From Thermococci archaeon (GTDB taxonomy: Archaea > Hadarchaeota > B88-G9), in contig QMUK01000002.1 of assembly GCA_003660555.1 (NCBI GenBank), positions 1 to 50,668 of the forward strand: a DNA stretch of 50,668 nt, read 5' to 3'. Positions 12,592 to 46,417 of the stretch are shown here, in pieces (the stretch's first letter is position 1; every line of letters begins with the position of its first letter). The notes under the pieces were generated by a model. It was not told where the DNA came from, searched no databases, and worked only from the letters and a program-made list of their open reading frames with translations. The translations under genes were made by a program, and so were the position numbers.

Positions 12592-12915
12592 CTAGTCTAA
12601 ACTACTCCAGAACTTCCTAGATAGCTCCTTGACCAATGCGTCGATCCTTTCTTTTGCGACTTTCATCTCTTGTTCAAGTTTCTCCATCTCAGTCCTGATT
12701 AATTCCTCCATTTCCTTTTTTATTCTCTTCTTGCCCTCTGCTATAGTTTTCCTATATATCTCCTCAGCTTCCTCCTTTCCTCTTTCTAGGATCTCTCTTT
12801 TTCTGTTCTCTGCCTCAATTATGATTGATTTCGCTCTTGCTTTTGCTTCCTTTATTTTACTGTCCATTTCAATTTCTGCTTTCCTTATTTCTAGTAGGAC
12901 TTCTTCCTTCTTAAT
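12592..12915 (-). CDS. atpH: A-type ATP synthase peripheral stalk subunit H, extended to an ATT start
   Basis: KEEVLLEIRKAEIEMDSKIKEAKARAKSII... AhaH-like coiled coil; the track starts at ATG 12867 but homology-like sequence and the SD (GGGGTGA) lie upstream. Confidence 0.7.
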   Translation of the reverse strand: MKKEEVLLEIRKAEIEMDSKIKEAKARAKSIIIEAENRKREILERGKEEAEEIYRKTIAEGKKRIKKEMEELIRTEMEKLEQEMKVAKERIDALVKELSRKFWSSLD

Positions 12916-12921
12916 TTTCCT

Positions 12922-13032
12922 TCACCCCTTAAGCATTGTCCACAAGAAGATGATATACCCTAGAACTAACATTAATGTGGAGGTAAACCAAGCTATCCTA
13001 AAGACTATTTCCCTCTTCTCCTCTGGGCTCAT
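12922..13032 (-). CDS. 36-aa single-TM peptide [36 protein letters not shown]
   Basis: Read directly; ATGA overlap with the atpD stop, followed by TGA; hydrophobic helix of about 22 aa. Below the ORF-track length cutoff. Confidence 0.6.
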   Translation of the reverse strand: MSPEEKREIVFRIAWFTSTLMLVLGYIIFLWTMLKG

Positions 13033-13643
13033 CTCTTAAACCTCTTCAATCTGAATATGTCCTCTCTTTCCATTTCCTCTAGCTTAAATCTTATTTCCCT
13101 AGAGGTTCTCTCCAGATTCGGTATCACTATGTATTCTAATGCGTTTACTCTTCTTTTGTTCTTGTCTATCTCATCTAGAAGTCTTACCAATGTATTTTCC
13201 AACTCAGTCAGTTTGACTCCCATTTCCAAGAGTTCCTCGTACTCCTTAGAAACTTCGTCTATCAGAGTAGAAGTTCCAAGAATTCCATATCCTCTCTCCC
13301 ATATCTTTCTCTTGATTTTTCCCTTTGATTTTACCTTTGGGACTTTAACCCCCATTATATTCTTAAAAGAGACGTCGATCTCTGGAGCCTCCCTTACAGA
13401 CATTGCTGCAGAGACTATTGCTGGAGTGCCCTCAACTGCTTTGGCCAATGAAAGTTTTTCGTATGCCTTGGCATATTTCTCGTTCACTTTTCTTCTTAAT
13501 TCCGCGGTTTGTTCCATGATCTTGAAGAATTCAGATACTAGAGCATCTCTCTTTCTCTTTAGTAGCTCCCATCCCTTCTTAGCAATCTCTATCCTCCTTT
13601 TAACCTCTATTAGGCCGGACCTCGTCGGCCTTATCTCCATCAT
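13029..13643 (-). CDS. atpD: A-type ATP synthase subunit D
   Basis: [42 protein letters not shown] upstream of ATGATG. Confidence 0.93.
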
Positions 13644-15036
13644 TAGGGTGGTCCTCCTTATCCCTGTACTTTGGATGATATTTTTCAATTTGCCACCTTT
13701 CCAGCCTAGTTAACTCATCCTCAGGCAGCATGGCCAAGAGATCCCATCCTATATCGAGTGTTTCTTCTATTTCTCTTTCCTCTTCTCTCCCTTGGTTGAC
13801 GAATTTGTTCTCAAACTCATATGAAAACTCCAAATACTTCAAATCTCTACCGGTGAGAGCCTCCTTCCCAACTATTGCCACTAAACCTCTCATATCTATT
13901 CCCTCTGCATATGCCGAGTACAATTGATCAGCAAGTGCTCTGTGTTCCTCTCTAGTTCTTCCCTCGCCTATTCCGAGATTCATTAGCCTAGAAAGAGACA
14001 TTAGAACGTTTATAGGCGGATATATTCCCCTCATATGAAGTTCTCTGGAGAGAACTATCTGACCTTCGGTTATGTAACCCGTGAGATCCGGTACTGGATG
14101 AGTCATGTCGTCTCCAGGCATGGTCAATATTGGGAACTGTGTTATTGATCCTTTCCTACCTCTTATCCTCCCAGCTCTCTCGTATATAGTCGCTAGATCC
14201 GTGTAAAGATATCCTGGATATCCTCTCCTCCCAGGAACTTCTTCTCTAGCTGAAGAAACTTCCCTAAGGGCTTCACAGTAGTTAGTCATGTCGGTTAAGA
14301 TTACTAGGACCTGCATGTCGTATTCAAAAGCTAAATATTCTGCTGTGGTTAGAGCCATTCTAGGTGTAACTAATCTCTCTATGGCTGGGTCCTCAGCTAA
14401 ATTAAGGAAAACTACTGCCCTAGAAAGAGCTCCGGTCCTTCTGAAGTCTTCCATGAAATATTGAGCCTCTTCATTTGTTATTCCCATAGCAGCAAAGACT
14501 ACAGCGAATTCCTCTTCCTCCCCTAGTACTTTAGATTGTCTAGCTATTTGAAGGGCTATGTCATTGTGCGGTAATCCCGATGCTGAGAAAATAGGAAGCT
14601 TCTGTCCTCTTACTAGAGTATTCATCCCATCTATTGCTGAAATTCCGGTTTGAATGAATTCCTTTGGTGTGTCTCTGGCATATGGGTTTATGGCCGCTCC
14701 AGTTATGTCTAATCTCTCATCAGGCATGACTTCTGGACCTCCATCTAGAGGTTCTCCTAGTCCGGAGAGGACTCTACCTAGCATCTCTTCGGATACAGGA
14801 AGGCGAAGTGTTTCTCCTATGAACCTGACCCTGGCCCCGGTGTCTATTCCGGAAGTTCCCTCGAATACCTGCACTACAACTACTTCCTCTGATGTGTCCA
14901 ACACCTGTCCTCTTCTTCTCTCCCCGTTCTCCAATTCTATCTCCACGAGTTCTCCGTATCCTACTGGGGAGGTCTTCTCAACGAAGAGCAGTGGTCCAGA
15001 TATCCTATTTATAGTTCTGTATTCTCTGAGAGACAT
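13600..15036 (-). CDS. atpB: A-type ATP synthase subunit B
   Basis: [43 protein letters not shown]. Confidence 0.97.
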
Positions 15037-44889: not shown

Positions 44890-44942
44890 GCTAGGGCTCA
44901 ACGACCCTATACCACCGACCAACCCAGTCTTGCGCACCATTA

Positions 44943-46417
<1,475 letters not shown>

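Follow-up and report, generated by a model that had tools for sequence, protein, structure and literature searches.

The window, a stretch of 50,668 nucleotides whose 16S, 23S and RNase P RNAs mark it as archaeal, carries an A-type ATP synthase operon on its minus strand. The gene for the peripheral-stalk subunit H, ahaH, raises the question of where its translation begins: mechanical ORF calling selects an ATG, whereas the initial annotation proposed an ATT 16 codons upstream. We examined the two positions by family comparison, Shine-Dalgarno (SD) scoring and a scan of the genome for other near-cognate starts (Table 1).

Position of the AhaH start

Read from the stop codon at 12924-12922, the minus-strand codons are TGA AGG AAA ATT AAG AAG GAA GAA GTC CTA CTA GAA ATA AGG AAA GCA GAA ATT GAA ATG(12867). 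Inspection bore out the local features on which the initial annotation had based its proposal: no in-frame ATG, GTG or TTG lies between this TGA and ATG 12867, and a GGGGTGA stands 6 nt 5' of the ATT (12928-12922 and 12915-12913, respectively). The pairing of this motif with the anti-SD of the window's own 16S rRNA, also claimed there, amounts to -13.6 kcal/mol, while ATG 12867, said to have no SD at a workable distance, has a register-scored energy of only -2.4 kcal/mol.

Homologues place the start at the upstream codon. The ATT form matches TIGR02926 with an E value of 3.2e-9 (residues 8-88 on positions 2-82 of the 85-position model); its score of 36.9 bits does not reach the curated cut-off (48.5), nor do the scores in any of the 28 phylum genomes searched. 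We collected 45 other AhaH genes with readable ends, 17 of them in phylum members and 28 in archaea more widely, and all 45 have a canonical start at model positions -11 to -2, mostly -7 to -3. The ATT falls inside this range, in agreement with the earlier statement that it gives the usual AhaH N-terminus, whereas a start at ATG 12867 would remove that conserved N-terminus. Phylum relatives begin MVEESLRAIFEAEKKA... and are co-terminal with the ATT form within one residue, the N-terminus MVEESLRAIFEAEKKAREQ of phylum members aligns with (M)KKEEVLLEIRKAEIEMDSK of the ATT form, and the 16 codons upstream of ATG 12867 retain the conserved EI.KAE pattern. No close AhaH was found in L031, a Diapherotrites bin, or in the Methanomicrobiales loci. 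An alignment of homologues had been suggested as a check; with phylum-level relatives as the nearest ones, the start site proved to be shared and none of the 45 genes started at the site of 12867, but the codon itself was not shared, because every homologue read has ATG, GTG or TTG there. The ATT is thus specific to this lineage.

Table 1. Features of the ahaH region and of genes with candidate near-cognate starts. Coordinates without a handle are those of the window.
Feature	Position	Strand	Remarks
ahaH, A-type ATP synthase peripheral-stalk subunit H	12592..12915	-	107 aa counted from ATT; TIGR02926 match
Candidate start codon ATT	12913..12915	-	no other near-cognate codon at SD distance; at -5 in the model
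ATG chosen by mechanical ORF calling	12865..12867	-	probably internal Met17; SD -2.4; model position +11
SD GGGGTGA	12922..12928	-	includes TGA stop of upstream ORF; -13.6 kcal/mol with 16S 3' end
36-aa single-TM ORF, AhaG-like by position	12922..13032	-	one hydrophobic helix; between ahaD and ahaH
ahaD (subunit D) open frame	13029..13688	-	PF01813, E 3e-59
Anti-SD, 16S rRNA 3' end GATCACCTCCT	44942..44952	-	16S within window
Membrane protein with C-terminal winged helix	10833..11777	+	probable near-cognate start at CTG 10833, the second of the window
PyrG	CTG, L169:2448		residue 2 aligned to model position 3; 11 codons to the first ATG
RpoL	ATA, L155:13982		residue 1 on model position 1
RdgB	ACG, L157:9592		residue 5 aligned to model position 2; 18 codons to the first canonical start
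Cbf5	ATA, L097:7533	-	residue 8 on model position 4
ArgF	CTG, L221:4231	-	model begins at residue 7-9; 16 codons to the first canonical start
ZPR1	ATA, L220:6452	-	model begins at residue 12; 31 codons to the first canonical start
MetRS open frame	L271:3920-5941	-	no ATG/GTG/TTG ahead of conserved N-terminus; strong SD precedes TTC
T2SSF/ArlJ-like protein	CTG, L278:4358; frame L278:3279-4358	-	near-perfect SD AAAGGAGGTGAT, -22.1; no canonical start for 17 codons
Further candidates	ATC, L275:2843; ATT, L226:579		by SD only or SD plus signal peptide

Ribosome-binding site and translational context

SDs were scored by stacking energies against the 11-nt complement of the 16S 3' end, in a fixed register and at a spacing of 5-8 nt. 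Across 408 kb of the genome, the energy found before the ATT is reached by 0.28% of internal codons and lies within the best 18% of canonical starts. GGTG before start candidates clearly prefers a spacing of 5-8 nt; at 7 nt, the distance between GGTG and ATT in ahaH, it was counted 17 times among the first six canonical start candidates of each gene versus 2 times among 4,879 internal NTG codons. Starts with an SD of -9 or stronger in an 844-kb sample of the genome comprise 191 TTG, about as many as ATG (182), and 47 GTG.

The genes upstream of ahaH are closely packed. Subunit D ends at 13029, and the ATG of the 36-aa ORF overlaps its stop codon as ATGA (13032-13029). The stop codon of this small, genuine-looking ORF (TGA 12924-12922) sits in the ahaH frame with no later stop between the two, a point absent from the initial annotation. 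None of the family models searched against the 36-aa ORF matched it; by position it is possibly AhaG, and small TM ORFs are similarly placed directly 3' of D in Methanomicrobiales loci (L032-L039). Several phylum relatives (L041-L064) have a gene order unlike that found here, in which D is followed by another conserved ORF (VERIIKFELSRLNVHLPERR...), which we take to be DUF61, and a TM protein; in the phylum relatives examined, subunit H is near the opposite end of the operon.

The ATGA overlap, together with the 6 nt from TGA to ATT, suggests translational coupling of D, the small ORF and H. A ribosome that terminates on the small ORF would most likely re-initiate at once on ahaH: at the UGA within GGGGUGA its anti-SD would already be on its site, and initiator tRNA would be set on the AUU that follows after 6 nt, for a predicted N-terminus of Met-KKEEVLLEIRKAEIEM... 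Archaeal re-initiation is efficient at overlaps or very short distances (up to ~10 nt) and is lost by ~20 nt (PMC10666635). More generally, a strong SD at 5-8 nt appears to be enough for near-cognate starts (AUU, AUA, CUG, ACG) in ~1% of the genes of this genome. That AUU tunes the stoichiometry of AhaH is speculation. Loss of aIF1 as the cause of relaxed selection was considered and rejected, since the genome encodes aIF1 as well as aIF1A and aIF2 beta. The initiator tRNA is apparently normal (CAT anticodon, GGG/CCC in the anticodon stem, A1-U72). Given the presence of these factors and this tRNA, no simple loss explains the near-cognate starts.

Probable near-cognate starts elsewhere in the genome

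A scan over ~1.09 Mb of this genome's sequence looked for near-cognate codons that have a strong SD in frames lacking an SD-supported canonical start. It yielded recognizable genes with complete N-termini, and strong-SD near-cognate codons seem to be the starts of about ten other genes; the list is partly based on the SD only, for which the scan carries a background. In relatives, every readable PyrG (7) and RpoL (20), this genome's own not counted, begins with a canonical codon at a comparable position. In the window itself, CTG 10833 follows GGGAGGTT, and its SD scores -15.3 versus -1.1 at the best canonical start; a start at this CTG adds the signal peptide LSKRLVLLKLLFSIIVMF, which a start at GTG 10878 would lack. 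An ATA match at L271 was rejected as the start of MetRS because the codon is internal to that gene, and the matches at L109, L145, L152 and L172 were set aside as not credible or not decidable. A comparison of ORFs with those of the phylum relative G001 by alignment end was overrun by antisense shadow ORFs and was usable only for Cbf5.

In 844 kb of the genome, 12 of 565 near-cognates passed the filter versus 37 of 6,553 other codons (Fisher p = 3e-4 at SD -11; p = 0.0017 at SD -10 and 0.06 at SD -9), a modest test in that the threshold was picked after inspection and neighboring codons sharing one SD were counted separately. The enrichment was not seen in 400 kb of G001 (1/234 versus 128/5,739). 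The positions of the starts relative to their families are stronger evidence than this test. With little more than even confidence, we lean toward a lineage with genome-wide relaxed start selection, in which SD strength rather than codon identity would fix the start, TTG would equal ATG in frequency where the SD is strong, and ~1% of genes, including the essential PyrG, RpoL and Cbf5 and possibly MetRS, would begin at CUG, AUA, AUU, AUC or ACG.

Alternative explanations and known systems

The ATT might be a wrong or polymorphic base in a metagenome assembly, the true codon at 12915 being ATG or TTG. The assembly is a MAG of 1.3 Mb in 150 contigs and is the single source of the ATT base, and the nearest relatives, which belong only to the same phylum, show ATG, GTG or TTG at this site. 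We nevertheless regard such an error as improbable: some ten lost starts in ~1,000 genes would imply ~4e-3 errors per base, and among the 23,327 codons aligned to G001 that rate would produce ~11 nonsense changes (an estimate, with fewer after detection loss), but split genes were found in 0 of 104 pairs compared with G001, where fragments shorter than 60 aa would escape. In addition, the altered codons land on efficient near-cognates. The split-gene evidence is strong but not absolute, and widespread sequence error is unlikely.

Two further readings leave the ATT base as it is. AhaH could be naturally short, starting at ATG 12867 with the upstream codons untranslated; this ATG is the first canonical start codon and would still give a 91-aa coiled coil, but its poor SD, its absence as a start site among the 45 homologues and the EI.KAE pattern kept in the upstream 16 codons make this very unlikely. 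Hardly credible is read-through of the TGA, which would join the TM ORF and AhaH into a membrane-anchored stalk protein resembling F-type subunit b. The two ORFs do share a frame with one TGA between them, and there is a weak likeness to F-type subunit b (NF004411, 3.2e-5), but a shared frame has a 1/3 chance, the TGA belongs to a strong SD that is followed by a near-cognate codon at normal spacing, small TM ORFs are free after D in methanogens, and no TM-fused AhaH was apparent among the homologues examined for starts. Taken together, we infer from the sequence that AhaH very probably initiates at AUU 12915 under a strong SD and is probably coupled to the small ORF; elsewhere in the genome, too, strong SDs appear to permit near-cognate starts.

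Gene finders restricted to ATG, GTG and TTG would truncate or misplace such genes; under this type of calling, conserved N-termini are lost from AhaH, PyrG, ArgF, RdgB and ZPR1. Should the pattern prove real, the lineage would offer an archaeal test bed for the trade-off between SD strength and aIF1-type fidelity in start selection.

The infC gene of Escherichia coli starts at AUU. In Staphylococcus aureus, where compensation of a weak start codon by a strong SD is established, starts with extended SDs include cvfC1 (AUU), ccpN (AUA), infC (AUA) and citZ (AUA), such AUU and AUA starts reach ~10-30% of the AUG level, and the AUU start of E. coli pcnB is cited in the same work (PMC13009471). The start codons mentioned in an excerpt of a review on archaeal initiation are AUG, GUG and UUG only (PMC7531240). 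AhaH resembles other members of TIGR02926 as a coiled-coil stalk subunit with a conserved N-terminal EI.KAE stretch, but its gene follows D and a small TM ORF and has ATT as its start codon. Like AhaG of Methanosarcina mazei (PMC4350412), the small ORF is hydrophobic and lies directly after D; AhaG is 6.3 kDa and the ORF here 36 aa, and the two are likened by position and hydrophobicity, not by homology. The ATGA overlap and the very short distance from the small-ORF stop to the AhaH start recall termination-reinitiation in archaeal operons (PMC10666635), with the AUU start codon as the difference. In the S. aureus and E. coli cases, as proposed for ahaH, a strong SD at normal spacing directs initiation to a near-cognate codon; those cases, however, are bacterial, were mapped by drug-arrested ribosomes and/or reporters and are read as attenuation, whereas the present ones are known from sequence, concern housekeeping genes and belong to an archaeon with aIF1, aIF1A and aIF2. 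A single ATT start is a further case of the known SD-directed near-cognate starts, and greater interest attaches to the recurrence of such starts within a single archaeal genome.
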